From a virus: a stretch of 28,583 nucleotides of DNA. This document shows positions 308-26,744 of the stretch, one piece after another. How positions within the stretch are numbered: the first letter of the stretch is position 1; each line of letters starts with the position of its first letter. The stretch covers positions 1 through 28,583 of the IMG/VR virus record IMGVR_UViG_3300020162_003168; one strand, written 5' to 3'. Both the position numbers and the translations under genes were made by a program. The notes beneath the pieces are model-generated. The model made no database searches, was not told where the DNA came from, and worked only from the letters and a program-made list of their open reading frames with translations.

Positions 308-577
308 CTAATATTTATAAATTTTTAGTCGTAACTTACCATTTCCTTTAATTAAACGATGGTATTTGTGTCTAGGTATAAATATTGGTTGATTAAATGT
401 AATTGGCAATTCATCTTCTAATTGTATTTTCCAATCAGTTTCACCTTGAAGATATAATGTTCTATGTTCATCATCGCGATGCCAAAGAAGTTCGATGGGA
501 TCTACATTCTCATCGAACTCACGAATTGTATATTCTTCGGTTATTTCTAAATCAGTATATGGTTTACCAGAATCCAC
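308..577 (-). CDS. Small cupin-like conserved phage protein
   Basis: An 89-residue protein with a GTG start that overlaps the end of the preceding gene by 14 nt; no ATG is available after the upstream in-frame stop. The middle reads WHRDDEHRTLYLQGETDW followed by Gln-Leu-Glu-Asp-Glu-Leu-Pro, and the end has IFIPRHKYHRLIKG. This is the pattern of a small beta-barrel (cupin-type) protein: a W-H-R-D turn, a Gly-Glu turn, then an I-P-x-x-x-Y-H-R strand. I recognise similar short proteins in T4-like phages of aquatic bacteria, where their role is unknown. The histidines could bind a metal or simply be structural. Function not assigned. Confidence 0.72.
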   Translation of the reverse strand: MDSGKPYTDLEITEEYTIREFDENVDPIELLWHRDDEHRTLYLQGETDWKIQLEDELPITFNQPIFIPRHKYHRLIKGNGKLRLKIYKY

Positions 578-1211
578 TAAATGTTGTTTTAAAACCTAAT
601 AATTTAGCATATCGGGGTAAACGACATGACCAATATGATGCTTTAGTTCTATCTTTTTTATTTTTACAATCATGACGTGCAGCAAATGCTCTACGTGCTT
701 GAGGATTATTTAATTTAGCACGCAATCCAGTTGTATCACCAAATGATACTTTTTTAACTCCACCACCTGGTTTACGAACATAAACGTAGAATTTTTTAGA
801 ACCACCACGTTTTGGTTTTCCAATTGGAGGTGTTTTCTTTTTATCTACTTCAGATACTAATTCTTCTTCAGTTAAAATATAATCAAGAGGAAATTCTATT
901 CCGTTATGGATAAATGTTTCTCCAATATTTGATTCTAATATTTCAGCATCATCTTCAGTTACTGAAAGTAATCCTTCATTATATAATTTACGAGCTTCAT
1001 TAAATAATTCAAAATATTGTTTAGATAATGGTCTGTAAATATTATGGATTAATTGTAATCCTTCAGCAACATGATGTTTTAGTCCTTCAGATAATATAGG
1101 AGTATCTTGTCCTTCTTTTAACATTAATTTAGGACCATTACACCCACAATCTTCGTTTAAGGTATTTTTTAAAGTTTCTTTAATTAAAACACGGATTTGA
1201 CTTAATTTCAT
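564..1211 (-). CDS. Conserved phage protein with N-terminal (L/I)xE tag and C-terminal Cys/basic domain
   Basis: 215 residues in three parts. Residues 1-20 (MKLSQIRVLIKETLKNTLNE) form an amphipathic helix with IKE and LNE tripeptides, like a T4 capsid-targeting sequence. About residues 40-130 are an acidic helical domain containing LSEGLKHHVAEG and a later YFELFNEAR, a pattern I recognise from unannotated proteins of marine myoviruses. About residues 135-207 are a basic domain starting KFYVYVRKPGGGVKKVSFGD and including ARHDCKNKK and SYWSCRLPRY, which resembles a conserved phage domain of unknown function (DUF5872-type, from memory). The basic, two-Cys C-terminus could contact DNA. Its start overlaps the upstream gene by 4 nt (ATGA-type coupling). 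Possible head-packaged protein; this is inference. Confidence 0.8.
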   Translation of the reverse strand: MKLSQIRVLIKETLKNTLNEDCGCNGPKLMLKEGQDTPILSEGLKHHVAEGLQLIHNIYRPLSKQYFELFNEARKLYNEGLLSVTEDDAEILESNIGETFIHNGIEFPLDYILTEEELVSEVDKKKTPPIGKPKRGGSKKFYVYVRKPGGGVKKVSFGDTTGLRAKLNNPQARRAFAARHDCKNKKDRTKASYWSCRLPRYAKLLGFKTTFSGFW

Positions 1212-2401
1212 TTTCTAAATTTTACTTTTGCTTTATCTGTATTTGAAACAACACGATCACCTTTGCGATCAGCAGCTGCTTTTTTACGAGCAGTAGCAGC
1301 ACGTTCAACTTTAGTTAAACGATTTGCTTTAGCACGAGGTAAACAACGAGTAGTTGCTTTACCTTTTTTCATTGTGCCACAATCTCCAGTTATATTTCCT
1401 TGAGTATCGATTCGAACCCAATCTTCTTTATCAAACCAATCACGTAACGATTCGTCAATTTCACCTGTTACGTCTTGGTACGCCCATTTTGCTTTAGGTT
1501 CAATAGTAGCTAAAATAACTTGTGGGTTAATACCTTTAGCTCTATCAAACATTAAACGAGTATTACCACCTACTAAATAAAATTTATTTGGAGAATATTG
1601 CAGAATCAACGCAGGAGGAGTTTTTTCAGCGGCTAATATGCTTTGATAATCTTTACCGTATTGACGCGCTAATTCTATCGCTTCTTCCTCAGAATCTATG
1701 TCATATGAGTCAGTATTTTCTAAACGTGACCACATATCATTATTTAAAGTAACTTCTCGACCATTAACAAAAGCATCATATACCGTATCATAAGGTAGAT
1801 TTAAATCTTCTGCTGTACGTTCTATTTCTTCTGATTCGTCTTTAATGATTGGTTCCCATCCTAATGGATTAATAGCTTCATTCATATTCAAATAAAAATC
1901 TTCAGGTTTGAATCCTTTTTTTTCTACACCCCAAAGTATTTGATTATATTTTCCATTATATAGTAATTTATCTTGATCTTTTTGTATATAAGATATAGCT
2001 TTAGGTAGTGGTGTTTTTACTGCTTCTTTCATCCAAGGCTCAGCATTAGACATATTATATAATGTAATAATACTAGCATCACCTTCCCAATTTGGTTCAT
2101 CAACTCCTCCTTTACCGTCTCCTGGTTTAGTAATAAAGATAATGCCTTTATCAACTAATTTTTTAATATCAAATGGGTTTTGTTTAACTAAATCAAAATT
2201 AGAGGTATCATCATATTGACCTTCTTCTAAATCATCTTCTTCCATTAAACCTTTACATACTTTAACAGCACGGCCAGAAAGATAAGCTGATGGTACTTCA
2301 CCAGCAGCTATACGACGATTATAATAAGCTTTACCTTTAGGACATAATTTTTTTTCTATTATGACCTGTTCGATTATAGCTTTTATTTTATTTCGATCCA
2401 T
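1208..2401 (-). CDS. Conserved phage protein with (L/I)xE tag, GGNTR motif and Cys/basic tail
   Basis: I place the start at ATG 2401 (397 residues) rather than ATG 2470. The shorter form begins MDRNKIKAIIEQVIIEKKL, which matches the tagged N-termini of neighbouring proteins, and it overlaps the upstream gene by only 14 nt. After the tag comes LCPKGKAYYNRRIAAGE and SGRAVKVCKG, a Cys-containing basic segment seen in other phage proteins. Around residues 275-285 is LVGGNTRLMFDRAKG, the shape of the ParB/sulfiredoxin-type G-G-x-T-R loop. Residues about 337-352 (GDCGTMKKGKATTRCLP) begin a Lys/Arg/Ala-rich C-terminal helix, similar to a small phage domain of unknown function (DUF6321-type, from memory). 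No enzyme activity can be assigned. The basic Cys-containing ends suggest nucleic-acid contact. Confidence 0.78.
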   Translation of the reverse strand: MDRNKIKAIIEQVIIEKKLCPKGKAYYNRRIAAGEVPSAYLSGRAVKVCKGLMEEDDLEEGQYDDTSNFDLVKQNPFDIKKLVDKGIIFITKPGDGKGGVDEPNWEGDASIITLYNMSNAEPWMKEAVKTPLPKAISYIQKDQDKLLYNGKYNQILWGVEKKGFKPEDFYLNMNEAINPLGWEPIIKDESEEIERTAEDLNLPYDTVYDAFVNGREVTLNNDMWSRLENTDSYDIDSEEEAIELARQYGKDYQSILAAEKTPPALILQYSPNKFYLVGGNTRLMFDRAKGINPQVILATIEPKAKWAYQDVTGEIDESLRDWFDKEDWVRIDTQGNITGDCGTMKKGKATTRCLPRAKANRLTKVERAATARKKAAADRKGDRVVSNTDKAKVKFRK

Positions 2402-2645
2402 TATCTTCTTGTTTGGGTAAAAACCAATTTGAACACCATTTAGATGGGTCTTGGATTTGATTACCTTCATTATCTACTAATTCAGAAGTACCCATATACT
2501 CTTGGTAATCTTTACTAGCACACATATGTTTGTCGTCTTGTTTATAATAGAATTTACATACATGACATCCAAACCCTACAGGTGAGTACATGTACGGAGG
2601 AGATACCTCAGATACTTCACTTAATATATTAACTAATTTAATCAT
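2388..2645 (-). CDS. Small four-cysteine protein with (L/I)xE N-terminus (Fe-S or zinc binding?)
   Basis: 85 residues. The N-terminus MIKLVNILSEVSEV is almost the same as that of the kinase-phosphatase protein two genes upstream (MIKLFDLLKEITEK) and contains LSE. Four cysteines lie at 27, 30, 42 and 71 (CHVC, HMCAS, KWCSNW), with W70 and W74 beside the last one. The spacing Cx2C-x11-C-x28-C resembles small phage proteins often labelled high-potential iron-sulfur-like, but zinc binding would fit equally well. The gene starts 12 nt after the end of the holin-like gene and overlaps the next gene by 14 nt. If the N-terminus is a capsid-targeting tag, the mature domain would start near residue 11-14. 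Confidence 0.75.
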   Translation of the reverse strand: MIKLVNILSEVSEVSPPYMYSPVGFGCHVCKFYYKQDDKHMCASKDYQEYMGTSELVDNEGNQIQDPSKWCSNWFLPKQEDNGSK

Positions 2646-2657
2646 AACTTAAGCTAT

Positions 2658-2861
2658 TTATTTTCCGCCACGTTTTATCTTGTAATAAATCTGCACCCCT
2701 AACCATCCAATAGATAGTATATAAAATAGACCAGTAAGTACAGGATTTAACATGGAAAAAAAGCTATTGAACAAAGCAATACAAGTTGTTGCTACCCCAG
2801 CAGCGTTTAGTTCAGGTGACTGATGCATTTTATTGAGAAGTGATAAAAATGTTATGACCAT
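2658..2861 (-). CDS. Two-helix small membrane protein, holin-like
   Basis: 67 residues. A short N-terminal part is followed by two hydrophobic segments (about residues 20-37 and 41-60) and a positively charged end (YYKIKRGGK). The second segment reads LTGLFYILSIGWLGVQIYY. Size, two membrane helices and a basic C-terminus are those of class II holins, which open the inner membrane at the end of infection. No endolysin gene is visible in the window, so a lysis cassette cannot be confirmed and another small membrane role is possible. The start codon follows the stop of the preceding gene with only TATTT between them (TAATATTTATG). Confidence 0.65.
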   Translation of the reverse strand: MVITFLSLLNKMHQSPELNAAGVATTCIALFNSFFSMLNPVLTGLFYILSIGWLGVQIYYKIKRGGK

Positions 2862-2866
2862 AAATA

Positions 2867-3451
2867 TTAACTATTTAATTTAACACGTGATTCTTCTAAA
2901 TCTTTCATTACTTGTTCACGAATTTTTTGTTTATCTAATGCTTTTACATGCCAATCTTCAATATCTCCTTGTTCAGTAACAAATCCAGTAGCATCAAAAC
3001 TATTTAGAAAATCATCAAACCCATTCTCAAATTCATCTAACATAAAATTAGCATTATTTTTAATAATGTTGTTTTCGTATTCTTCGTATTTTCCTTCTAT
3101 TTTTAATTTAGTTTCCATATCAATAACACAATCTAAACACATGTTATGAATGTGGAACATTTTTTTATCATGTTGAACTTTCATAGGTTTAGAGCATGTA
3201 GGACAAAGAAGTGGAGTATAAGCATAAGTTTTAGCACGTTCTAATTTAGATATACTAATTCTTATACCATTTTTTAAAGTCCATGTTTTACCATTTTCTT
3301 CCCAAATATCTCCATCTTTACGTTCAATATGTTTACGAGAATACCCTACTTGAGTTTGTGTAGAATCTCCTTGATTACCTGAAACCAAATTTCGAATTCG
3401 TCGAATATCTTTTTCTCGGAATTCTTTTTGCAATAATGTTTCTTTTGCCAT
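2867..3451 (-). CDS. Zinc-finger conserved phage protein of unknown function
   Basis: 194 residues. The centre holds a treble-clef-like or ribbon zinc site: Cys83 and Cys86 (LCPTCSKPM), His100/His102, then Cys105 and Cys108 (NMCLDC). After it comes an acidic helical part (LKIEGKYEEYEN) and an acidic stretch rich in Phe and Asp (residues about 135-155). The N-terminal 80 residues are basic and polar and include DGDIWEENGKTWTLKNGI. I recognise the CP.C...C.dC plus GKYEEYE arrangement from unannotated genes of T4-like marine phages. It could be a transcription or assembly factor, but nothing visible decides this. Stop and start are 1 nt apart from the upstream kinase gene, so translation is probably coupled. 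Confidence 0.75.
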   Translation of the reverse strand: MAKETLLQKEFREKDIRRIRNLVSGNQGDSTQTQVGYSRKHIERKDGDIWEENGKTWTLKNGIRISISKLERAKTYAYTPLLCPTCSKPMKVQHDKKMFHIHNMCLDCVIDMETKLKIEGKYEEYENNIIKNNANFMLDEFENGFDDFLNSFDATGFVTEQGDIEDWHVKALDKQKIREQVMKDLEESRVKLNS

Positions 3452-3452
3452 T

Positions 3453-4688
3453 TTATAACCCTAATTGTTTTAGTTTTTTTATCGTTGAATCCGCTGATGT
3501 GTGGTGAATACCAACACCTCCAGCATCAATCCAGCGTTCAATATTATCTTCTCTGTCATCAATTAATATTGCATTTGGTTCTGCTAAATCTTGTTTATAT
3601 TTAGCTTGTTTAAATATTGCTTTAGTACCTGGGATATATTTTTGTACCCATTGTAATTTACCTTCTTTAGATGATGGGTCCATTGAAGGAGCGGTTAATA
3701 ATTTAGGATTAAATTGTTTAATATAATTCCATAATTGTTGACCATCTTCCATCCATTCTAGATCCGCCCAAAATTTAGCACCCGCTTTATCGATTGCTGA
3801 CCAAAATTCATTTTTATTATAAGGTGAACTAAAACCAGGTGCTTTACGACCTGTTAAATCATTATATCCACGTTCAAAATCAACAATAACACCATCCATA
3901 TCACAATATAATTTATATTGTTGTTCAGCTTCAGCTAACATTGAAATTTTAGATTTAGCTGAATCTAATGTATCTGTTTGAGGAATTGATTTAACTAATG
4001 ATATTATATCTTGATTTAATTGTTCAGCATCTGCTTTTGCCTTTGCTTGTTCCTCTGGTGTTTTAGGTTTACTTGAGAATTTAGCTGTATCGAAAAATAA
4101 TTTTTTAACTTCAACGGGGTCAAATGTTTTATTAGCATCTTCAGGATCATTATTAATTAAAATAAAACGATCACCAAATTCTTGACGATATAATTCAATA
4201 TTTTTATTTGTATCTCTCCAAGTACGTAATACAATTTGTGGTAATAATGAACGTTCGCGTTCAGCGTTACGTTTTAAAGATGTTATAGGTGAAACATACA
4301 ACATCAACATCATTATATCATATCCTAAAGCTTCTAATTCTGCTTTCTTTTTTAATAATGGTTTAGAAGCAGCACCTGTACCATCTATAATAATATTATT
4401 TAATCCTTCAAGTGCTTTAGCATACTTTTCTTTAGTTACTTTTTGAGCAGATCCCATTAACTTAGCGGCTTGGGATAAATCTTCAGGACCAAAATCTTTT
4501 ATATTAGTACCTAAACCTGATGATTTGAGTAATTCCTCGTATGTGTCGTCTACATTTATTACTTGATATTTTTCAACTGGGAGTAATTGTTTTAAAGTAT
4601 AAGTTTTACCTGAACCAGCAGGCCCAGCTAAAAATATAGCTTTAGGTTTTTCAGTTATTTCTTTTAATAAATCAAATAATTTTATCAT
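3453..4688 (-). CDS. Tagged P-loop kinase fused to HAD-type phosphatase (polynucleotide-kinase-like layout)
   Basis: 411 residues. Residues 1-14 (MIKLFDLLKEITEK) form an amphipathic segment with LKE and ITE. Residues 16-200 are a P-loop kinase: Walker A GPAGSGKT at 22-29, VDDTY at 46-50, IIIDGTGA at 99-106 and a basic lid region with RNAERER. This looks like the zeta-toxin/polynucleotide-kinase group. After an Ala/Lys/Gln linker (205-255), residues 258-411 are a HAD phosphatase of the 5'(3')-deoxyribonucleotidase type: DMDGV at 263-267 (two catalytic Asp), Thr332 as motif II, and IDDRED at 376-381 as motif III. T4 polynucleotide kinase has the same order (5' kinase then 3' phosphatase), so end-healing of DNA or RNA is the leading idea; nucleotide metabolism is an alternative. 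It overlaps the upstream fusion gene by 4 nt. Confidence 0.85.
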   Translation of the reverse strand: MIKLFDLLKEITEKPKAIFLAGPAGSGKTYTLKQLLPVEKYQVINVDDTYEELLKSSGLGTNIKDFGPEDLSQAAKLMGSAQKVTKEKYAKALEGLNNIIIDGTGAASKPLLKKKAELEALGYDIMMLMLYVSPITSLKRNAERERSLLPQIVLRTWRDTNKNIELYRQEFGDRFILINNDPEDANKTFDPVEVKKLFFDTAKFSSKPKTPEEQAKAKADAEQLNQDIISLVKSIPQTDTLDSAKSKISMLAEAEQQYKLYCDMDGVIVDFERGYNDLTGRKAPGFSSPYNKNEFWSAIDKAGAKFWADLEWMEDGQQLWNYIKQFNPKLLTAPSMDPSSKEGKLQWVQKYIPGTKAIFKQAKYKQDLAEPNAILIDDREDNIERWIDAGGVGIHHTSADSTIKKLKQLGL

Positions 4689-5563
4689 TTTACTGTAAAC
4701 ATTTCAGGTTTTATTTGAGCAAAATTTCTCATCATAATAGCGGCAGCTGCATTAGCTTCGTTTTCATGAGTATGACCTGTTTGGCCTGAATTTGGCTCTA
4801 ATCTATTTTGTACATCTTGTTTATAATGAACTAATTCATGAGCTAATGTTCTAAAAACATCTGCTTGATGACGATTAGCTATATTAATTTGAATACTTTT
4901 ATTATTTGGATTATAACCCCCAAATGAACGCATACCTTCAGCAGACATATTATCATATGATAATGTTAATGGAGGTAATGATTTTAATTTTAAATATTCT
5001 CTACAATAAGCAATAAATGGTTTTAGTAATGGTAAATGATTTTCGTATATTGGATGTTCATTTAGTGAGTTTGCATTTTTACGATACGTTCTAGTAAATG
5101 CATCAAAAAATTCTCTTGTTGAAACTCCATTAGGTAAAAAATTAGCTACTTGTTTAATATTACGACCACGAATGGCATCTCTAAAATCAGTAGCAGAAAT
5201 ATTATCTGCATTTCCTGCATTAAATATTTCTACGTTAGGTACTGATTGTAAATTAGAGAAACGGGTACCTTCTTCTTTACCGAATGCTGTTACATATTGG
5301 TTATCTGGGTTATTTTTTATTTGACTAAATGTATAACTAACAGGTGAACCAGGTACTAATACTGTTTCAACTTTAGGTCCTAATAAATTTTTATATATCT
5401 CCCAAACATCCAATGATTGTTCTGATGTTACACCACCACGGTCTTTTTGAGAAACCGCAATAATAACTTTATCAACATCAGATCTATCAACTAGTTGTTT
5501 AACAACAAAAAAATGTCCTTTGTGAGGTGGCTTAAAAGCACCAGGGTAAATAGCTATCTTCAT
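4685..5563 (-). CDS. Nucleotidyltransferase fused to HExxH metallopeptidase-like domain
   Basis: 292 residues. Residues 1-150 are a cytidylyltransferase-like Rossmann domain: His14-x-Gly16-His17 in PPHKGHF, and the second signature ISATDFR at 122-128. This family transfers AMP or CMP to phosphorylated substrates (NMN adenylyltransferase, CoaD, glycerol-phosphate types). The substrate cannot be read from sequence. Residues about 175-292 are a different domain with HELVH at 242-246 and Glu267 in HTHENEA, a zincin-type zinc site as in small phage metallopeptidases. The junction holds an LNE tripeptide at 167-169. The gene overlaps the kinase-phosphatase by 4 nt, so the two multi-domain enzymes are probably made together. 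The combination is unusual; NAD metabolism, end repair or modification of host proteins are open options. Confidence 0.85.
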   Translation of the reverse strand: MKIAIYPGAFKPPHKGHFFVVKQLVDRSDVDKVIIAVSQKDRGGVTSEQSLDVWEIYKNLLGPKVETVLVPGSPVSYTFSQIKNNPDNQYVTAFGKEEGTRFSNLQSVPNVEIFNAGNADNISATDFRDAIRGRNIKQVANFLPNGVSTREFFDAFTRTYRKNANSLNEHPIYENHLPLLKPFIAYCREYLKLKSLPPLTLSYDNMSAEGMRSFGGYNPNNKSIQINIANRHQADVFRTLAHELVHYKQDVQNRLEPNSGQTGHTHENEANAAAAIMMRNFAQIKPEMFTVK

Positions 5564-8144: not shown

Positions 8145-11100
8145 TTAAATACAAGTTGTTCCTTGAGATAATGAACCTACTAAAACAGATTGAGCACAAA
8201 TACTATCATATAAAGCTAAATTTCCAGTTACAAAACTACCGTTACAAGCTATATATTCGACATAAGTATTTGGTGAATAATCAGTATTAGTAAATGTGTA
8301 ACATGTTGGAACTGGTGTTGGTGTTGGAGTTGCAGTTGGTGGTGGTGGTGTAGGTGTAGGTGTTGCAGTTGGAGGTTCTGGTGTTGGTGTTGGAGTTGCT
8401 GTTGGAGGAACTGGGGTTGGTGTAGGAGTTGCTGTTGGAGCTACATATCCACAAGTAGGATCATTGAAAGCAATTACATCAGAATAAGTACCACATGAAC
8501 CATCAGCAAATACTCCAATTCTATTATAATCAGGGGCACCACCACAATAGTCATAAAGGAAAGTTCCATAAGACGGACAAGGTGTTGGTGTTGGAGTAGC
8601 TGTTGGAGGGATTGGAGTTGGTGTTGGAGTTGCAGTTGGTGGAATTGGAGTTGGAGTAACTGTTGGTGTTGAAGTTGGTTGTGGAGTTGGTGTTACTGTA
8701 GGAGTAGGTGTTGGGTCACTACAGTTATAGAATGATGTTTTCTGGAAGCTACTATCATATGTTGGAGGAGCTGGATATTGAGTTACTGAGTTACCATTAT
8801 ATAAGTAGTATACTCCTGGTTCTGCTGGTAGTACATATCTTTGATTTATTCCATCAGGTGGAATTGTAGTAAATTTATATAATACATCAATACATGAAGA
8901 TACTTCATAGTAAGTTGATGGAGTTGGCGTAGCTGTTGGTGTTGGAGTTAATGTAGGAGTTCGTGTTGGTGTTATAGTAGGTGTTGGAGTTGGTGTTGCT
9001 GTTGGTGCTGGGCAAGCACTATATACAGCAATAAATCCTGAATTATCTATTGTGAAATAATCACCGTATGGAGATGATTGAGTTTTAAAATATGTTCCAG
9101 CACCAGCATACGCTGTTTGAATAGCACTAGTAGTATATAAAACCTTACCATCAGTATATGCTTCAAATATTGAAGTATATCCAGTAGCATTTACATATAC
9201 TGTAACTAAAGTACCAGTTCCAGCACATGCATCTTGATATGTACTCCATCCTTGTAACGGACTAGTTCCTGAATCTGATCTAGCCCATATGTTTAAGGCA
9301 GTAAAAGGAACTGGGGTTGAAGTTGGTGTTACTGTTGGTGTAACAGTAGGGGTTGGAGTAATTGTCGGAGTTGGGGTTGGAGTGATTGTTAATGTTGGTG
9401 TTGGAGTAATTGTTGGGGTAACTGTAGGGGTTACTGTTGGTGTTGGAGTAATTGTTGGGGTAACTGTAGGAGTTACTGTTGGTGTTGGACTGATTGTTGG
9501 GGTAACTGTAGGTGTAGAGGTTAATGTTGGTGTAACAGTTGGAGTTGCAGTAATTGTTGGGGTAACAGTTGGAGTTGCAGTAATTGTTGGTGTAACAGTT
9601 GGAGTTGCAGTAATCGTAGGAGTTATTGTTGGAGTTACTGTTGGAGTTGAAGTCGGAGTAACTGTAGGGGTTGGGGTAATAGTAGGGGTTATTGTAGGAG
9701 TTGCAGTTAATGTCGGAGTAACTGTAGGAGTTGGGGTAATTGTTGGTGTAATAGTTGGTGTAGCAGTTACTGTAGGTGTAACAGTAGGAGTTATAGTTGG
9801 GGTTACTGTTGGAGTTGAAGTAGGAGTGGAAGTAACTGTTGGGGTTATAGTTGGGGTTACTGTTGGAGTAGCAGTTGGAGTAGCAGTAACTGTTGGAGTT
9901 GGTGTTGGAGTTGTATTAATACAATCAACAAAACTACCAGTTATATATAGAATTTTATTTATTGGATTTGTTGAATCTATAGAAGCTATTTTAATTAAAC
10001 TTACTTGAGTTGAAGCTGCAACTTCAGGTCCATAAGGTATATAAGTTTTACCATCATTAGCTGATGATGTAACTCCATAAGTAGCAAGTAATGTACTTCC
10101 AGAATATACTTCAGTTGTTAATTGAACTTCATTATATAAAGGAGTATTAATACTACTAGTATATCCTACTAAATAAAAACCATATAAACTGCCATTTATA
10201 GTTGCTGAAGTTAAACATATTTCTTCAGTATTAATTGAAATTATTTGTGGTCCATTAAAATAAAACGGATCATTTACTGCCCAGTTAGTTATTGATTGGT
10301 ACCAACCGGTTGAAGCTGATATTATCGAAGCTGTAGAAATATTTGATGAATATAATAAAAATGAACTTGAATCTGGTGTTACATATCCTCTTACTACTTT
10401 AGGATTAGTTGTTAATTCACTAGAATTAAAACATCTTGGAGTTGTAACACTTGTAACTAAACTAGTGATTTCATTATCATCTAATGAATAAAAATAAAAA
10501 TCACTAGTATGATCTAAATTAGTAGTAGATAATAGGTGAGTACTATTATCAGAAGCAGTAGCATGTGTACTACCAGATGAAGGAACTGTATATGTTTGAA
10601 ATACTGTTCCGTTATCTAATTCGTAAAAAGTAACATATGGATTTGAACCTGTAATATAGTAAAATCCATCTATAACTTCATATCTACCTTCTATATCAAA
10701 AAATGCTTTTTTATTTATAGTTAATCCACTTCCATTAGTATTATTAAAATATATGGGAGTTGGATTAGGGTTTGTTTCAATTCTTAATTCATTAACGAAA
10801 TAAGCATCTAATGTGCCTAAAGCACTTCCACTAAGACCAGAAGAATATTTATAAGTACTTCCAGTAGTAAATTGTTTTAATTTATTCCATTGGGCTAATG
10901 TTTTATTATTAGCATCCAATAAACTAACACAACTAAAAGATGAACTAGCATCTAAAGTAACAGTTACCGTTCCTGGGGTAGATACTAATTCGGCACAATC
11001 TGTTATGCTTAAAGTTTCTGTTCTTTCTTCACTATAGTATATAGGATTTCCTTCACCGCAGAATGGAACTGGTTTTCCTGAAGTATAGGGTAGAACTAAT

Positions 11101-12722
11101 AATTTATTTATAGTTTCTACTCTTGTAGGATTATCAACTTGTAATGCTGTTATTTTAGTTAATTTAAGAGGATCTTCACTAGTTAAACCAGTAATATTTG
11201 AAGGGATTTTAGAAGTAATTATACCCCCAGATTGTTGATAATGATATACTCCATCACTATAATACCCATTATTATTAGTTAATAAATCTACAGTTCTAGA
11301 TAAAGCACTACTAGTTTCAATATATGGGGTTGTAGTATAATGGTGTAAGAAATTTGGACATCCTGATTCTTCAAATGTTTTATCTATAGCCCAAAGAATC
11401 AATGCTATAATTAATATTGCAACAGCAATAATAATAAGTGTAGCAGAAATAGCAGTAACAGCAGCCGCTTTTAAAAGACTACTAGCAGCTACATATTGTG
11501 TTCCTGCTGCTACACATCCTCCTGTAACTGAAGCAGTATTTAAAACAACATACCATCCTAAAGCTTTTGCTACAGCTCCAAAAAATATCCCACTAAATAA
11601 AGGAAGGCCAGCTGATATAGCTAGCATAGTTTGTGGAGTAAAATTAAAACCAGAATCGGAATTTATATCTTTTAATACACCATCTGCTAATTTATACATA
11701 GCATGAGCATCTCCAGTTACTGGGTAGAATTTTTCTTGGGTTAATACAAATTTTTGAAAGGCACTATTATTAGCAGTTTCAGCATTACTAGCATTATACC
11801 CCATATAATATTTATACTTTAGGGGTTGGATTAATGTACCAGTATTAATAATTTCTTTAATTCTACCAATTCCAGTTGATAAAACCTCAACACATCCATT
11901 AGTACTATCAGAAACAGTTCCATTCCATTTTTGAGGACCCAAAGTTGTTTCTGTTGTTTGTGCTGGTTTACCTATGATTTTCATCCAGGCACTTCTGTAA
12001 ATTCGAATTCTTTTTTTAGTACCGTATGCTCTATCTAATTCATTTCCAACTTTATATACCTTAGTCCCGATACCGTAATAATAGGGATATGCTGGGAAGC
12101 TAAAATAAGGATCAGCCCATACTTTGGTATCAGTAGTCCATGAAGCTGTTGGGGATGTAGCACATAAAAAAGTAGTTAATTTTGGACTATTAGCAGCATC
12201 ATAAGGAGAATAAACATGAAGACCTGCAGTATACTTATATAATGGAGTATAACAATCATATTCACAAACTATACTACTACCTACAGCAGATGATAATCTA
12301 GAAGGGGTTGAACCAACTGTAGTATGAATTGTTATTGAAGAAGTTTTTAAATCATATCCATTTACAATAACATATATGCGTTTTGTTTGACCTGATGTTA
12401 GTTTTATATCATACCCATTTGGAGGGATTCCTGTAAGATAATAAGCAAATACATCATTTAGATCACTACCTACAGAAATGTCAGAACCATTTGGTGTTGT
12501 AAAAGTAATAGCAGTAATATCTGCGGTACCTGTATAAGTAATATCAAAGGTTAAATATCCATGGTTTGTATTAGTTAAATACAAATCTTTAGATATAGTA
12601 GCAAAACGTCGCCCAACATATGTTTTAGCTTTTTCACTATTAACCAGCACATAAGATGGTAAACTCTTATTGAATAGTGAATTACTATTAAAAGAAAACG
12701 TTGTTGTATTACTTAAGGGCAT
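8145..12722 (-). CDS. Giant Thr-Pro stalk adhesin / tail-fibre-like protein with internal hydrophobic block
   Basis: 1525 residues. Residues 1-930 are Ser/Thr/Tyr-rich, beta-type sequence. Within them, about residues 365-447 are very hydrophobic and contain [20 protein letters not shown] near residues 426-445, a classic membrane helix. About 937-1137 are an almost pure Thr-x-Thr-Pro tract. The last ~390 residues alternate short Thr-Pro linkers with four small Cys-containing modules, including [32 protein letters not shown] and a C-terminal one ending in TTCI. The linkers near the C-terminus use an 11-residue unit ([33 protein letters not shown]). Position after the baseplate genes and modular beads on a stiff stalk suggest a receptor-binding or surface-exposed fibre. 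The fold is not recognised. The Thr-rich stalk could be glycosylated; this is inference. Confidence 0.82.
8308..8442 (-). repeat. Thr-Pro linker with 33-nt unit ([11 protein letters not shown])
   Basis: The tract encodes three consecutive 11-residue units differing mainly at the first residue (V, E, P), preceded by a partial unit. The same unit recurs twice with Ile in the next linker at 8580-8717, so the two linkers share an origin. Confidence 0.85.
8580..8717 (-). repeat. Thr-Pro linker, second bead spacer
   Basis: Encodes [20 protein letters not shown] followed by two [11 protein letters not shown] units, between two Cys-containing modules of the 1525-residue protein. Confidence 0.8.
8920..9012 (-). 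repeat. Thr-Pro linker, third bead spacer
   Basis: About 30 residues of alternating Thr and Pro with occasional Ile, Leu, Ala and Arg, separating two Cys-containing modules. Confidence 0.8.
9310..9914 (-). repeat. Main Thr-x-Thr-Pro stalk tract of the 1525-residue protein
   Basis: About 200 residues in which every second residue is Thr and the others are Pro alternating with Val, Ile, Leu, Ala or Ser. A 10-residue unit ([10 protein letters not shown]) appears several times in succession. At DNA level the period is 6 nt with a 30-nt higher unit. Third codon positions vary from unit to unit. Confidence 0.95.
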
Positions 12723-12727
12723 ATCAG

Positions 12728-12738
12728 TTATAAATATT
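12728..12738 (-). promoter_or_regulatory. Recurrent intergenic motif AATATTTATAA
   Basis: Lies in the 24-nt gap before the 1525-residue gene; the coding strand reads AATATTTATAACTGATATG. It is the only recognisable element there and no ribosome-binding site is visible. Confidence 0.35.
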
Positions 12739-12746
12739 TAAAACTA

Positions 12747-15230
12747 CTAAACACAATATATTGATCCACTATTACATGTACCATACAAACTAGCAGTCCC
12801 ACTAGTTAATGAGTAAATGTTATTATTAATAGCCGAACCACTAAATGGTATTAATTTATAATACCCATTTGGAGTTGATCCAGTTAAACTTGAACTAACA
12901 TACCAGCTTGAACTTTCAAATCCACTACCTGATAATTGAGATAATGCAAAGTATACAGATGAAGTCGTAGTACAAGATGTACATAAACTACTTGTAACTG
13001 CTGATCCAGTATAATAACAGAATTTATATGTTGTTGTATTATTTTTCTTAACAGCAGCATATATAATCTCATTATTGTTTATAAACTGGTGAGAGTATTC
13101 ACTTCCAGTTGTTAGGTATGGGTTACTTTCTGCATTAGATCCAAATAAAGTCCATCCCAATAAATTACTTCCGCTAGTAGCACTTGCAGTTACTGGGTAT
13201 GTTGATCCATAAGATTGAGTTACATCAAACGAGCCACTTATATTACTTCCAGTAGAATTAGTAATATATCCTGTACCAGCACCGTCTACTGATAATAATA
13301 CAAATTTAACATTTACATTACAATTAATTTGAGGAGATGCTACTATTATACCTCTAGAATCTCTAACTTTAGGATTAATAGTTCCACTCACACCTGTAAA
13401 CACATATGTTGTACTAGAAGTAGCAGCAGTATATGTTACACCATCATTTATACTATATTCATATCCTGGAACACCACCTGCAGCAAATAAACTAGCTGTT
13501 GAGTTAGTACAATCAGCTGAAGCACTTAATGTGAATTCAGGAATTGGAGTAACTGTTGGGGTTGGTGTAACTGTAGGTGTTACAGTAGGAGTTGAAGTTG
13601 GAGTAACTGTTGGTGTAGCTGTTATTGTTGGTGTTGAAGTTGGAGTTATTGTTGGAGTAACTGTAGGAGTATTAGTTGGAGTAACTGTAGGAGTATTTGT
13701 AGGTGTTACAGTAGGGGTTGGGGTAATTGTTGGTGTAACAGTTGGAGTTGCAGTTACTGTTGGAGTAACTGTTGGTGTGGCTGTTACTGTTGGAGTAATT
13801 GTAGGAGTTGCAGTTAATGTCGGAGTAACTGTAGGAGTTGAAGTAAGAGTTGGAGTTACAGTTGGAGTTGCAGTTACTGTTGGAGTAACTGTTGGTGTAG
13901 CTGTTACTGTAGGGGTTGCTGTTGGAGTAAATGTTGGGGCACCTGTCTCTGTTGGTGTTGGTGTAGGAGTAACTGTTGGTGTTGGTGTTATAGTAGGAGT
14001 AACAGTAGGCGTAGCTGTTATAGTAGGAGTAACAGTAGGTGTAGCTGTTATTGTAGGAGTAACAGTAGGTGTAGCCGTTACAGTAGGTGTTACTGTAGGC
14101 GTAGCTGTTACTGTTGGAGTAACTGTTGGTGTAGCTGTTATTGTAGGCGTTACTGTTGGAGTTTCAGTTGGAGTTGATGTTGGAGTTGGAGTAAGAGTTG
14201 GAGTTACCGTTGGTGTAGCTGTAGGAGTTTCAGTTGGAGTTACAGTTGGGGTAACTGTTGGAGTTGAAGTTGGTGTTGCCGTTATTGTAGGAGTTGAAGT
14301 TGGAGTTACAGTTGGGGTTTCAGTTATAGTAGGAGTTGGAGTTGGAGTAAGAGTTGGAGTTACAGTTGGAGTACTAGTTGGAGTAATTGTTGGTGTAACT
14401 GTTGGTGTTGAAGTTAATGTAGGAGTAATCGTTGGCGTAACTGTTGGAGTCGCAGTTGCTGTTGGAGTTACTGTTGGTGTATGAGTAGGGGTAATTGTAG
14501 GTGTAGCAGTTGGAGTTACTGTTGGAGTTGCTGTTATAGTAGGAGTAACAGTAGGAGTAGCCGTTACAGTAGGTGTTACTGTAGGAGTTGCTGTTACTGT
14601 AGGAGTCGGTGTAGGAGTAAATGTTGGGTTACCTGTTGGAGTAACTGTCGGAGTTGGAGTAATAGTTGGAGTAGGTGTAATTGTTGGAGTTACTGTAGGT
14701 GTTGCAGTTATTGTAGGAGTAACTGTAGGGGTATTTGTAGGTGTTACTGTAGGTGTTGCAGTTGCGGTTGGAGTAACTGTTGGGGTATTAGTAGGAGTAA
14801 CGGTTGGAGTAGCAGTTGGAGTTACTGTTGGGGTAACTGTTGGAGTTACAGTAGAAGTAGGTGTTATTGTTGGTGTTGGAGTAACAGTTGGAGTACGTGT
14901 TGGAGTTACTGTTGGAGTTGATGTTGGAGTTGGTGAAGGAGTTACTGTTGGAGTAACAGTAGGAGTTGGAGTAGCTGTTGGAGGAACTAATGGATACGCA
15001 TATCTATTAGTTTCGTAACATTCTGGTTTTGTATTAATTATATCTATAAATTGAACAGTTTCACTTGTGTATATAGTAACTCCACTAATCAACTCTGTTG
15101 AGGTTATACCTACAGCAGGAGAAATTAAGTCTGATTTCAATGCTTCATAAGTCCCTGTTGGATCAATATAATATATATTGAAAGGACCTGTTGGCGAAAT
15201 CGGATTAAGTGTTACTGTGAACTGTTTCAT
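12747..15230 (-). CDS. Thr-Pro stalk protein with C-terminal Cys-rich beta modules, adhesin/fibre-like
   Basis: 827 residues. The N-terminal ~83 residues ([18 protein letters not shown], ending near PECYETNRY) form a small beta-type head. About 84-561 are an uninterrupted Thr-x-Thr-Pro stalk of roughly 480 residues, the longest in the window, with two landmarks ([14 protein letters not shown] and [14 protein letters not shown]). The last ~265 residues hold a domain like those of repetitive surface proteins ([29 protein letters not shown], recalling SprB-type repeats), a second domain ([14 protein letters not shown]) and a terminal Cys-bounded module (CYYTGSAV to [11 protein letters not shown]). 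It is 7 nt from the 448-residue gene and 24 nt from the 1525-residue gene, so the three should be co-expressed. Probable exposed tail appendage; receptor unknown. Confidence 0.82.
13541..14985 (-). repeat. 1.4-kb Thr-x-Thr-Pro repeat tract
   Basis: The longest repeat of the window: 6-nt basic period and many copies of a 10-residue unit ([10 protein letters not shown] or TI). Two G-x-PTF landmarks at about 13925-13945 and 14615-14635 divide it into thirds, suggesting block duplication. The same landmark occurs in the 448-residue gene. Use of ACN and CCN codons is mixed, so the DNA is more diverse than the protein. Confidence 0.95.
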
Positions 15231-15237
15231 TTATATA

Positions 15238-16584
15238 TTAATAGCATCCATCAGGACAATTATTTAAAGTACCATAAATTGGAGTTAATCCAGTTAAATC
15301 AGTTGTTTGACCTATTACAAAATAGCAATAATCTCCAGCAGACCAAACTTGATCAGCTCCACCTAAAGTTCCACCACCCGCCCAATACCATCCAGTACTA
15401 GCGTCAATACATCTTTGTAATAATGTATAAGGTATAGGAGTTGCTGTTGGTGTTGGAGTTACTGTTGGTGTAGGAGTAGGTGTATGAGTTGGTGTTGGTG
15501 TTGGAGTAACTGTTACTGTTGGGGTTGGAGTAGGAGTAAATGTTGGAGCACCAGTTGGAGTAACGGTTGGTGTTGGGGTAACTGTTGGTACACCTGTTGT
15601 TGTTGGAGTTGGTGTTGGGGTAATTGTTGGTGTAGGAGTTGGAGTAGGTGTAGATGCTATTTCGGTTATTATAGCATTAAACCCACAATTACATCTTATA
15701 ATTATTTCTAATGTTCCTGAATTACTTTTAAGTGTTTTATTTTCAGTCCCACAAGAAGAATCAACTACTATAGCATCAAATGTAAAATAAATAGTATAAA
15801 CTCCAGGATCAGTACCATTAAATGTTAAAACTCCAGCATTATTTACAGTACATAAACTAGCATAAGGACCACTAAGTTGATAAGATGAAACATCTATAGT
15901 TCCTCCCCTTCCATCACTAGAAGCTGTTAAATCTACTGTTTTAGATGGATTAGTATCTAAGAATGAAGTTTGAATAAATTGAGCTAATGGAGGTAAAGGC
16001 CACATTAACTGATAATCTTGATTGGTGATTATAGCTAAACCTTGAGAATAAAAAATATTACCTACGTGGTCATTATTATTTTTATAATCTATTAAGTTAC
16101 CTATACCATCATCTTTAATATAATAAACTGATGATGATAATTCAAAAGCATATGGTAAAATTTGTTCACCATATAAACCTTGATTAATAGATAATACACG
16201 AATACCTTGCATGGTACCCGTAGGGAAAGTTTTAATTAAATTTGGATTTTCATTATAATTAAAATAAGAACCTGTAGCTCTTATTTGAGAAGCACCCTCA
16301 TAATATAAAGAAGATAATAATGAACTAGTGTTAAGAAATTCAACACTAGAAGAATATTGTTGATAGTATAAGTGATTTATTTGAGAGTAGACTAATCTCT
16401 CATATTGTCCTTCAGTAATTGGATCTGTTTTAGATAAAAAGGAACCAGTTACGTTGGTTCCTTTATATATTACTATATTAGGATCGTTTTTAGGATAGGG
16501 GCAATATTCAAAAACCCAATTTTTATTGGCTACATACGGAACGGATATTACATCCGATCTTTTTAATCTTTTAAATGAAGCCAT
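15238..16584 (-). CDS. Tail-fibre-like protein with short Thr-Pro stalk and Cys module
   Basis: 448 residues. About 1-200 are a conserved-looking structural head ([59 protein letters not shown]), with the pattern of T4-like phage fibre or baseplate-attached proteins. About 215-305 resemble an Ig/cadherin-like beta domain ([20 protein letters not shown]). Residues about 310-384 are a Thr-Pro stalk with TGVPTV and [14 protein letters not shown] landmarks. The last ~64 residues are one Cys-containing module ([17 protein letters not shown] to NNCPDGCY). As the first of the three stalk genes, with a head that looks phage-structural, it may be the part that attaches the stalk proteins to the tail; this is inference. 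Confidence 0.82.
15433..15657 (-). repeat. Thr-Pro stalk tract of the 448-residue protein
   Basis: About 75 residues of Thr-Pro repeat, richer in plain TP dipeptides than the two longer tracts. It contains TGVPTV and [14 protein letters not shown] landmarks also seen in the 827-residue protein. Confidence 0.92.
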
Positions 16585-17567: not shown

Positions 17568-18230
17568 TTATGCGTTATTTACTTTAATTATGTTTACCGG
17601 AATAGTAATTCTAGCACCTGAATCTCTACCAATTACTGTTAAAGTTGTTGATAATGAAGTAGCTGAAGTACCAAATAATGTATTAATTGTTGTACCAGTT
17701 AAGGTAAATGAAGTACCTAGAACAGATTTACTTAATACAGCTCCAGTAGTTGCATTTGCATCTGTAGGAGTAGTTGTATTATTAATTCCAGTACCATTGA
17801 ATGAAGATAATAATCTAATATCGGCAATAGTAGCTGTATAACCATTAGCTTCAAATGTTGAAGTAGCTCCTAAATAATTTAATGTTTGAGGAGTAATAGT
17901 TAAAGTAGCACCTTGACGTAATGAGATTATATTGTAACCTAAAGAAATAACAGGTAATTTTGAAGTACCACGAGGTAAAGTCACTAACTTATATCTCATA
18001 ATTTGAGTTTCATCAGGGAAAGCTTCAATTATAGGCATAGCTTCAATAGCTTCACCATAAAAAGCAGATCCAGATGGATGAGTTGGATTATATAAAGTAT
18101 AATCAATTTCATCATCAGCTAATGAAAATTGGGTAATTTGAAAAGAACCGTCATTTCGTGCTAATAATTCACGACCTTTAGTGGTTAATACAGCATCTAC
18201 GGTTACTGTTGTATTATTTAAAATTGCCAT
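17568..18230 (-). CDS. Conserved phage structural protein (K-GRELLA / DDEIDY type)
   Basis: 220 residues. The N-terminal half is well patterned: TTKGRELLARND, FSLADDEIDYTLYNP, SAFYGEAIEAMPIIEAFPDE and MRYKLVTLPRGT. I recognise this combination from structural genes beside the baseplate and fibre genes of T4-like marine phages, where the function is not established. The C-terminal ~110 residues are Thr/Ser-rich beta sequence (TLTITPQTLNYLG; TLTVIGRDSGARITIPVNII) that looks like an Ig-like domain. The gene follows the largest intergenic gap of the window (49 nt), so it may open the fibre transcription unit. It is tightly coupled to the 323-residue gene. Confidence 0.8.
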   Translation of the reverse strand: MAILNNTTVTVDAVLTTKGRELLARNDGSFQITQFSLADDEIDYTLYNPTHPSGSAFYGEAIEAMPIIEAFPDETQIMRYKLVTLPRGTSKLPVISLGYNIISLRQGATLTITPQTLNYLGATSTFEANGYTATIADIRLLSSFNGTGINNTTTPTDANATTGAVLSKSVLGTSFTLTGTTINTLFGTSATSLSTTLTVIGRDSGARITIPVNIIKVNNA

Positions 18231-18279
18231 AATTCTTTGTTATTTTCGTATAAATATATATATTTTATAAATTTTTTAA
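18231..18279 (-). promoter_or_regulatory. Largest intergenic gap; A/T-only candidate promoter
   Basis: A 49-nt almost purely A/T gap between the gpI-like gene and the 220-residue structural gene. It holds TATTTATA (18249-18256, coding strand) and ATTTATAAAAT. A perfect A/T palindrome TTTTTAATTAAAAA at 18273-18286 covers the stop codon of the upstream gene. No G/C-stem terminator is present. A promoter for the fibre genes would fit here; there is no direct proof. Confidence 0.35.
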
Positions 18280-21200
18280 TTAAAAACTACCTAAATCTGG
18301 AGTATTAAAATCAACTAATTTTTGTTTTACTTCTTTAGTTATACTATCTATATTAGCTAATACATCAGGATGTAAATTATTTGGTATAATAAATCCTAAA
18401 GATGTAGGTTGATCTACAGTTTTATTAAATTGTAATACTACATTAGTTTCATCATTTATTTTACTTAATAGTAGAAATTTAGTTACATCACCATCAACAT
18501 ATACAGATTTCTTTAAATAACTAGGTAATTCATTAGATAAATCTAAATTTAATTTTCCGCTACCATCGAAATAAACATTTGATATTGATGATTCAAAATA
18601 ACCATTAGGATAATATACTGCTACATAATCTCCAACTTTTGGAGAAAATGTATTTTCAACATTACCATATGTCTTATATAAAGTATTAGTAGAGGCGACA
18701 GGAGAAGAAACAGTAGGTAAAAATAAATAATCTCTAAAATAACTTAATGAACTATTTAACACTAAACTATTTAAATAAGAACCAGATATAAATGGTTTAG
18801 TACCTGAGCTGTCATTAGCTAAAGGATTATTTCCTAATTGGTCTTGTTGTAGTTGATTATATAATGTACCTACATTACTATTAGCATTATAACCTAGTAC
18901 AGAAGCTGTAAAGTTAGTAGTATTAAAACCTCCACTACCTGTTATAAATTCAAATCCAATTTTATCATTTATTGTAAATTGAGTATAATCCGTACTTACA
19001 TTAAAATATAAAGTATTTGATAATTCAGATTTTATATCTTCATATAATTTTTGTTGATCATTATTTAATTTACATACTTGTTCTGATGGATTACTATTAT
19101 CACATCCTGGAACAAGTACTGCAGAATCATAAGCAGCTGATGTTACATAAAATTGAGTATTAAGAATAAAATTACATGGATTGTTCTGATCATATTCTGT
19201 TAATTGAGGAGTAGCAACAATTTGTCTAAGAACAGTTCCTGAGGTTAATGTTTCTAAAAGAGCTCCGTTTCCGTCATATACTTTTACATCTTGAGGTAAA
19301 GTATAATATGCATCAGAAGGTGTTTTTTTTATGAATATATAAGAAGTGTTTCGTCTTGTAGAAAATCCAGAAACAGCAGCTTTTGTTTCAGATTTTAAAA
19401 GAGTAGAAGGAGTTCCTACTTTTGTAATATTAAAAGTAAATGAACCAGAAAGATTAATTGTTGGGAATGTTACTTCTACTGCAAAATTAGCTGTAAATCT
19501 TTGGTTACCTGTTTCTTGAATACTATAAGTTGAGAATGTATTAGGATTACCACCATTAGTTGAATAAAATACATTACCATCAGCATATATAGGATCAGCA
19601 TTATCAAGATTTTTTCTAAATAAATTATAAATTTTTCCGTCACTAATAGGATATTTATTACTACTGCTTCCACTTATAAACCCACCTGAAGTAGTTATTT
19701 TGAATAATTTAGATAATGTATTTCCTACATAATCAAAATATAATTCATTATCTGCTTGAGCTAGATATAATATTGGAGCATAAGAATAACCACTATCATA
19801 AATAGCTTTATTACCATCAACTGCTTTTTGGTCACCGTATTTTTGACTATCAAATTGACCAACAACTAAATTATTTCCTGCTTTAAAAATATTTTGAACT
19901 TCTTCCCAATGTTTATTTTTCTTATTCAATTCAGTCAAACTACCACTTTCATCTATAAGATATTTTAAAAATACATTGTTTCTTTTTGGATAGTTGAAAA
20001 ATAAATTTTCTTGAATTTGAGTAAATAAACCTATTTTTCTTGTATGGTGATCAATAACAGCTGTTTTACCATAAGAATTATCACCTATATATCCTAAAGA
20101 TGCTGATGAATAATCATTATATTTTAAACTAGATATTCTAGTTCCATCATAGCGGGAATTTTGATGACCTTTTAATGATAAATAACTATCTTGTAATTCA
20201 GTATTTGAATTTATTTCACTACCGCTTGAAAATATTTTACCATTAATATTAGTATATATAGTTTCAACTTTTTTTCTTGGTACTGAAACTACACTTGATG
20301 ATACATTATTTAAAGTAACATTAAAATCACTATGTAGATAATTATTATATGCAGTTGTATCTGTTTCTAAAGATGTAGTAGGAAATAAGTATGGATTAGG
20401 ATTTGAATTTTCAAAATAATCATATACATCTATATAAGAACCTGATATTTCACCTGTATAGAATGATGATTTATCACCTTGTAATTTAGAAAAATTATAA
20501 GTATTATCTTGTTTTATAGTAGGACCAGCATACTTAGCATCACGTGTTTCTTGATTAGTAACATCAGGTTGATATACAGGTACTTTATTTCTTTCTAGTA
20601 CTGGGGATTTGATTGTTATACCTGTTAAAGCATTTGTTCTTGCAGGAACAAAATCTTTTAACATTTTAAATAAACTATTATCAAAATATTTTACTAATTC
20701 AACAAATCCTTTATAATCTAAACGTTGTTCACTTCCTGAAACCGCGGCACTAGAAGAGATAAAGTGTAAATTTTGTTCAATTAAAGCATCATATGATGAT
20801 GATTCCATTAATCTAGGATCACCAATATATTGATCTATATTAAATGATGCAGTACCTAAAGCATTAGCAGCTATATTATGAGTAGCAATAGATGAAGATA
20901 CTCTAACATTTAGTTCGTTTTGAGGACTAAAGGATAAATCTACAAAGTGTAAATCTGTAGAAGTATAATCAGTAGAAGCAGTAGGTTCAAGTTGTAATGA
21001 TACAAATGGAGATAAAACACTACCTGTAATAGTATTGTTTTTAACTGTTATTTTATCATTATCAAATCCTTTTATTTCGTTTATTTTAGTTGAACCACCA
21101 AATTCTTTTGGTTGTAAAATACTACTTGTAATACCAAATGAAGTAATTAAATTTTGTAATCCAACAGATGTACCTTTACCTTTATTTAATAAAATTAAGT

Positions 21201-26410: not shown

Positions 26411-26731
26411 TTATTCGCTATATTGTCTCATTTGGGCTAATTCCTGTGGACTCATAGTAGCTGCTGTTTCAGCAATAATATCTAGATATGGGTTCCCAGT
26501 TGATTGAACTTTAGGAGATGTTGGTTGATAACCACTATTTTGCATAGGAGGAGATTGTAAGCCCATCATACTAGCTAAATTTTTTCTATACGCGGTCATA
26601 TCAACATCTTGTGAAGTAAAAGATACGTTTCTATTCTCTTGAATAGGTTGTTGTTGAAGGTTTGCTAACTCTTCACGTAAAACTTCACGGACAGATTCTT
26701 TGATTAGTTTTTTAAATACGTCTACTTTCAT
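26411..26731 (-). CDS. Small tagged protein of the baseplate block
   Basis: 106 residues. It begins MKVDVFKKLIKESVREVLRE, an amphipathic basic/acidic helix with IKE and LRE, very similar to the start of the 215-residue protein at 564-1211 (MKLSQIRVLIKETLKNTLNE). The rest is low-complexity and Gln/Pro/Met-rich (NLQQQPIQENRN; MMGLQSPPMQNSGYQP), ending with a short helix LDIIAETAATMSPQELAQMR. No enzyme domain is visible. It may be a head-packaged or assembly-linked small protein, or the helix may bind a neighbouring baseplate protein. It lies 11 nt after the coiled-coil/membrane-type gene and 2 nt before the gp25-like gene. Confidence 0.75.
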   Translation of the reverse strand: MKVDVFKKLIKESVREVLREELANLQQQPIQENRNVSFTSQDVDMTAYRKNLASMMGLQSPPMQNSGYQPTSPKVQSTGNPYLDIIAETAATMSPQELAQMRQYSE

Positions 26732-26733
26732 GA

Positions 26734-26744
26734 TTATAAATATT
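26734..26744 (-). promoter_or_regulatory. Recurrent intergenic motif AATATTTATAA
   Basis: Fills the 11-nt gap: the TAA stop of the 405-residue gene continues as TATTTATAATCATG into the start at 26731. Same core as at 5588 and 12728. Confidence 0.35.

Follow-up and report, generated by a model that had tools for sequence, protein, structure and literature searches.

The closest described counterpart of the protein N-termini analyzed here is the capsid-targeting sequence (CTS) of phage T4. For the T4 internal protein IPIII the first 10 residues are sufficient, with residues 4 and 7 deciding targeting and residues 8 and 10 deciding processing, and the CTS may allow T4-like phages to package various proteins (PMC9026906). 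The internal proteins of T-even phages are diverse behind a conserved CTS (PMC3012670), and gp24, IPII, IPIII and Alt, though not gp61.1, have been described as T4 head proteins processed by gp21. Here we analyze a genome fragment of 28,583 bases from an uncultured T4-like myovirus (IMG/VR record IMGVR_UViG_3300020162_003168; the whole stretch is called the window), with its genes on the minus strand, in which four proteins (564–1211, 1208–2401, 2388–2645 and 3453–4688) begin with short tags of two kinds, class A and class B. These N-terminal segments are probably CTSs of the T4 type, a reading that is firmer for the two class A genes, where our confidence is high, than for the two class B genes, where it is moderate.

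By analogy with T4, the tags would be propeptides of 10 residues (class A) or about 20 (class B) on otherwise unrelated late proteins, and would dock this cargo onto the scaffold core of the prohead. A gp21-type protease of the S77 family would remove the tag after a hydrophobic-x-Glu site, typically (L/I)xE, and the mature proteins would stay in the head and, on T4 precedent only, enter the host with the DNA.

Two other described systems bear comparison. Head-packaged effectors of myoviruses, put forward on the basis of MuF or portal fusions and gene context, are likewise proposed to be head-carried, injected enzymes, with ADP-ribosyltransferases (ARTs) and NUDIX proteins often packaged (PMC9503650), whereas here a short address tag sits on separate proteins with no head-protein fusion. 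The inner-head propeptides of phiKZ and SPN3US are also cut after Glu by a prohead protease (PMC5694885), but most of them are much longer, and SPN3US has A-x-E as its motif. A narrow search of the open-access literature, with subscription papers outside it, gave no earlier report of such tags or of CTSs in metagenomes. Against that literature, what is apparently new is the pair of tags, how widely they occur in environmental phages and the pattern at the junctions, the CTS principle being already known.

Two classes of N-terminal tag

The initial annotation had described a single tag shared by the four proteins. Its sequences and coordinates are exact, and each N-terminus does carry at least one (L/I)xE tripeptide, but there are two related tag types, not one. 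Class A, MIKLxDILxE, opens 2388–2645 (MIKLVNILSE, with LSE) and 3453–4688 (MIKLFDLLKE, with LKE and ITE). Class B, KxxxLKxIIKE...VLNE, opens 564–1211 (MKLSQIRVLIKETLKNTLNE, with IKE and LNE) and, more loosely, 1208–2401 (MDRNKIKAIIEQVIIE, with IIE twice). Both share a core of hydrophobic-x-x-two hydrophobics-x-Glu that is also found in Alt, IPII, IPIII and gp24 of T4. In 564–1211 this core is displaced by about 2 residues relative to class A, and in 1208–2401 its strict form (defined below) is broken by a Q in place of the E; orthologues of the latter carry full tags. Nor are the tags uniformly basic, as had been stated: the first 20 residues of 2388–2645 have a net charge of −1.5. Of the supposed two basic Cys proteins, 564–1211 is basic (pI 9.4) and 1208–2401 is not (pI 5.6). 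The initial annotation also overlooked a fifth, class-B-like start on 26411–26731 (MKVDVFKKLIKESVREVLREEL), inside the baseplate cluster.

Applied to T4, the class A expression matches gp24 (MAKINELLRE), IPII, IPIII (MKTYQEFIAE) and gp61.1, and Alt (MELITELFDE) fits it at its annotated start. Among 51 non-redundant starts of the form MI[KRGS]L, residue 4 is Leu in all 51 (by selection), residue 7 is Ile or Leu in 42, residue 8 is Leu or Ile in 42 and residue 10 is Glu in 35, with residues 5 and 9 variable. The constrained residues 4, 7, 8 and 10 are the published targeting and cleavage positions of the T4 CTS. The starts of 2388–2645 and 3453–4688 have the features of a T4-type CTS, being N-terminal, within 10–20 residues, hydrophobic at 4, 7 and 8 and Glu at 10; the T4 sequences themselves (MKTYQEFIAE/A in IPII and IPIII, the slash marking the cut, and Alt) are alike in all of this, with a length of 10 residues, and in standing as a constant tag before unrelated cargo, and relatives of the window encode a gp21-type protease. 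They differ in that here the residues are others (MIKLxDILxE), there is a second class of about 20 residues, and the cargo types are many more, including kinases, NUDIX, ATP-grasp, exonuclease-like and peptidoglycan-hydrolase domains.

We also note that T4 gp61.1 (L374:18966–19130) starts with MKTFKEFIKE, a full CTS-like tag, and judged by its sequence is possibly an unrecognised internal head protein.

For the kinase-phosphatase at 3453–4688, E10 of the class A tag is the sole invariant column across 23 kinase orthologues together with the nucleotidase of immuto, a cultured relative and Flavobacterium phage, and residues 1–12 of the modelled kinase-phosphatase lie outside the confident fold. 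The immuto nucleotidase begins MGNLADLLLE given a translation start at Met5. By sequence the protein resembles a zeta toxin or polynucleotide kinase joined to a 5'(3')-deoxyribonucleotidase: zeta toxins are the best matches of the kinase half, and a 5'(3')-deoxyribonucleotidase is that of the HAD half. The architecture is like that of Pnkp (P-loop 5'-kinase plus HAD 3'-phosphatase), and T4 Pnkp gives E 1.6e-5 with a poor overall superposition (root-mean-square deviation ∼23). For the four-Cys protein at 2388–2645, an iron-sulfur (HiPIP-like) identity was considered and set aside, being without Pfam support.

Occurrence and cargo in environmental phages

The strict core, [LIVFYM]xx[LIVFM][LIVF]xE near residue 10, occurs in 4 of the 24 window genes (564, 2388, 3453 and 26411) against a background of about 1.2% (binomial P ∼2e-4), and the two class A starts compare with 2 matches at 5415 internal Met (P ∼4e-5); both P values are post hoc, because the motif was derived from such sequences, and independent testing comes from the counts in genomes and in IMG/VR. 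The core is found in 6.4% of 1262 genes in contigs of S77-encoding relatives, in 7.4% in immuto and in 4.0% in T4, compared with 1.3% both at internal offsets in the relatives and in control contigs, and about 1.1% when the N-termini are shuffled (81/1262 vs 7/529 genes for relatives and controls, P 9e-7). The class A expression matches 37 gene starts vs 2 of the 5415 internal Met, and the class B expression 31 vs 15. At the DNA level, the class A pattern has 26 matches in 1.19 Mb of related contigs and none in each of 400 codon permutations. Across IMG/VR it is found in at least 120 stretches, vs 11 for one codon-permuted control over the whole collection, and the class B pattern in at least 120 vs 0 for its codon-permuted control.

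Nearly all class A matches listed (231 of 235) stand at the start of open reading frames of at least 50 residues. With the tag removed, the cargo among the matches listed falls into up to 77 unlike clusters for class A and up to 90 for class B, 2 of them shared; the clusters were formed by BLASTP at E 1e-3, so that these counts are upper bounds on the number of unrelated families, with remote homology still in them. The same tag thus stands before unrelated proteins. The class A cargo has Pfam and PHROG matches to, among others, zeta-toxin-like kinases, NUDIX, RimK-like ATP-grasp, RNase_T-type exonuclease and leucine-rich repeat proteins, as well as to M23 combined with phage lysozyme, to cell-wall hydrolase and to a cyclase domain. 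Single contigs can hold several class B genes (six in L485, five in L423). A second (L/I)xE, which lay outside the search pattern, starts at residues 16–20 in 56 of 90 class B tags, vs about 4.5% at control offsets.

Three further observations concern the cargo and its tags. The tagged protein L054:14438–15088 matches the adenylate/guanylate cyclase catalytic domain at residues 135–216 (PF00211, E 1.6e-23). In immuto, three proteins (L163:3806–4354, 17631–18632 and 18632–18931) share a third recurring N-terminus, FDLKKFLVENKLT-like, in which the same core ends in LVE. ART-like cargo (L279, L269, L346, L233) was spotted by eye, Pfam giving no ART match, and is a lead only.

Prohead protease, capsid protein and domain borders

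A search of this contig for an S77 protease found none, as expected of a fragment that holds no head genes. The initial annotation had named the absence of a gp21-like prohead protease as grounds for abandoning its proposal, but close relatives that do reach head genes encode one. Of 19 related contigs, 12 have PF03420 (Peptidase_S77), among them four (G005, G006, G010, G017) whose kinase-phosphatase is about 83–85% identical. In long contigs found only through their tags it is present in 13 of 22 for class A and 17 of 20 for class B (30/42 in total), and in 0 of 20 control contigs, which came from permuted patterns and are mostly 20–44 kb, mostly shorter than the tagged ones. At closer lengths the counts are 14 of 24 tagged contigs of 40–75 kb vs 0 of 15 controls of 33–44 kb, and among tagged contigs of at least 100 kb they reach 15 of 17. 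The relatives' proteins score 92–122 bits (cut-off 27), lie within the head cluster as gp21 does and, in several cases, share the QLLIET N-terminus of gp21; the differences from gp21 are that some copies have intein-like inserts and that the gene is not on the window fragment. Class-B-like starts adjoin the protease in the head cluster.

The protease genes show some peculiarities of their own. In L535:258–1937 and L536:201–1304, inserts that resemble inteins (by eye) lie in frame at one shared site, GELDHPD^S; one insert is long, with a LAGLIDADG-like motif, and the other short. The S77 frame of L537:143–760 is uninterrupted only when TGA codes for Trp; it holds two TGA codons, one of them where Trp is conserved, and the gene after it starts with MKKSELKQMIKEELLKEG, a class B tag.

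The major capsid proteins of the relatives keep [LI][VLI]xE just before the mature body (for example LVQE/ANVTG or LITE/GNVTG), where T4 has FLTE/AEIGG. In immuto the predicted cuts fall after IVSE59 in the capsid protein, after LLTE10 in gp231, after ILKE10 in gp093 and after ADLLLE (residue 14) in gp087. Because P3 is V at this site in many relatives, the sequences suggest that their S77 protease may be laxer than gp21.

The two classes also exchange places. Some orthologues of the 1208–2401 domain start with a class A tag (MIKLLNILNELLFEKKLCPKG) and others with a class B tag (MEDKLKKLIKEIITEKKLCKKG), as do those of the 564–1211 domain, and across relatives one cargo domain can bear a tag of either class or none at all, the tags having been swapped, lost or gained. 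Six relatives, a few of which nearly duplicate one another, have the 564–1211 homologue behind the 1208–2401 homologue in a single polypeptide that carries one tag. In these fusions the 564–1211 tag has lost its first 17 residues, and LNE or LEE is kept immediately before DCGC. A hydrophobic-x-E precedes the SLRDWF domain in 18 of 18 distinct contexts. This pattern suggests cut sites at domain borders, although the Glu before SLRDWF may be part of the domain itself.

Alternative readings and implications

The capsid-targeting proposal of the initial annotation has thus gained support at the level of sequence, from the tags and their match to the T4 CTS, their excess over background, the many unrelated cargo proteins, the association with S77, the conserved capsid site and the swapping of tags. 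Several observations weigh against it. No head genes lie on the 28.6-kb window. Some kinase orthologues start with MKIRIKE or look untagged (L036, L037), P1' is not limited to small residues, and the V at P3 of the capsid site departs from the L/I of T4. Some tagged proteins are peptidoglycan-hydrolase-like (L343, L252), and such proteins more often belong to the tail or to lysis. The S77 controls are mostly shorter than the tagged contigs, and in the open-access literature searched we found no virion proteomics for the tagged proteins or for immuto. Finally, the class-B-like start of 26411–26731 is on a baseplate-cluster protein, and in L131:3602–5053 a homologue of this protein is fused behind a homologue of 26743–27960, making the class-B-like helix internal; this fusion may stem from a deletion in the assembly, and no weight is placed on it.

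The baseplate case also speaks for the possibility that only class A is capsid-targeting, class B being a helix for some other partner, such as a virion or baseplate component, and 564–1211 and 1208–2401 not being cargo. The higher internal-Met background of the class B expression fits this possibility, as does the finding of just two cargo clusters with both tags in the pattern-based sets. We nevertheless consider it unlikely: S77 is even more frequent in class B contigs than in class A contigs, class B tags finish with (L/I)xE, either class can stand in front of the 1208 and 564 domains in relatives, and class-B-like starts lie next to the protease.

It is more improbable that the tags address proteins elsewhere than to the head, whether to the tail, to the membrane or to an intracellular compartment built by the phage. 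Such an address would suit the peptidoglycan hydrolases among the cargo, but against it stand the association with a prohead protease and the agreement of the tags with those of T4 in their length, their position and the residues that are constrained.

That the shared starts are a nucleic-acid feature, serving translation control or as a recombination hot spot, is very improbable and mostly rejected by codon usage. Class A codons 6–7 (D6-I7) are biased to GAC-ATA (z 7.7 and 9.3, 77 representatives), and class B codons 2–4, 6 and 9–10 are also biased; against this, class A codons 2, 3 and 10 match local usage, there are 75 distinct 30-nt tags among the 77 representatives, no conserved sequence beyond A-richness is found upstream of class A tags, and the residue constraint agrees with T4 CTS function. 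Chance or ordinary N-terminal composition, which the shortness of the motif and its common residues might suggest, is hardly credible in the face of the permutation, shuffle, internal-Met and permuted-pattern controls. For class A, and for class B in its exact pattern, it is refuted, though the approximate tag of 1208–2401 taken alone could be chance.

The features of the window that enter the CTS reading are collected below.

Tags and tagged proteins in the window
Feature	Position	Strand
Class A tag MIKLFDLLKE of the kinase-phosphatase, 10 residues; predicted cut after E10	4659..4688	−
Tagged cargo: P-loop (zeta-toxin/polynucleotide-kinase-like) kinase fused to a HAD 5'(3')-deoxyribonucleotidase-like domain	3453..4688	−
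Class A tag MIKLVNILSE, 10 residues; predicted cut after E10	2616..2645	−
Tagged cargo: acidic four-Cys protein, 85 residues (CxxC...C...WC)	2388..2645	−
Class-B-like tag MDRNKIKAIIEQVIIE, 16 residues; strict core present in orthologues, absent here	2354..2401	−
Tagged cargo: multi-domain protein with KLCPKG...PSAYLSGRAVKVC and SLRDWF (phrog_23735) modules	1208..2401	−
Class B tag MKLSQIRVLIKETLKNTLNE, 20 residues; predicted final cut after LNE20	1152..1211	−
Tagged cargo: basic protein with phrog_7595 C-terminal domain	564..1211	−
Class-B-like N-terminus MKVDVFKKLIKESVREVLRE of a small baseplate-cluster protein; head-tag role doubtful	26672..26731	−

Elsewhere in the window, the product of 4685–5563 is Cytidylyltransferase/NadR-like, with a C-terminal part that resembles a metallopeptidase. 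It carries no tag in the window, but its homologues in L049, L050, L054 and L055 have a tag-like N-terminus, MNLGQYIAxxLLE. Three consecutive large proteins at 8145–16584 have very long Thr-Pro repeats (TPTPTVTPT) and are probably tail fibres.

A broader form of the CTS reading, which we judge slightly less likely than not, is that in a large, mostly uncultured group of T4-like phages the two interchangeable tags are a general code for loading heads with a large, fast-changing enzyme set, some of it made as multi-domain polyproteins with hydrophobic-x-Glu borders that the prohead protease would cut into separate injected proteins.

If the CTS reading is true, the sequence of a tag of 10–20 residues would be enough to pick out the proteins that a phage probably brings into the host cell. 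In environmental phages, numerous genes of unknown function would become candidates for injected proteins, among them zeta-like kinases and NUDIX, RimK-like, cyclase-domain and hydrolase proteins, and gp61.1 would be such a candidate in T4 itself. Tags such as MIKLFDLLKE or MKKSELKQIIKEEIRKVLNE would also provide alternatives for loading phage heads.

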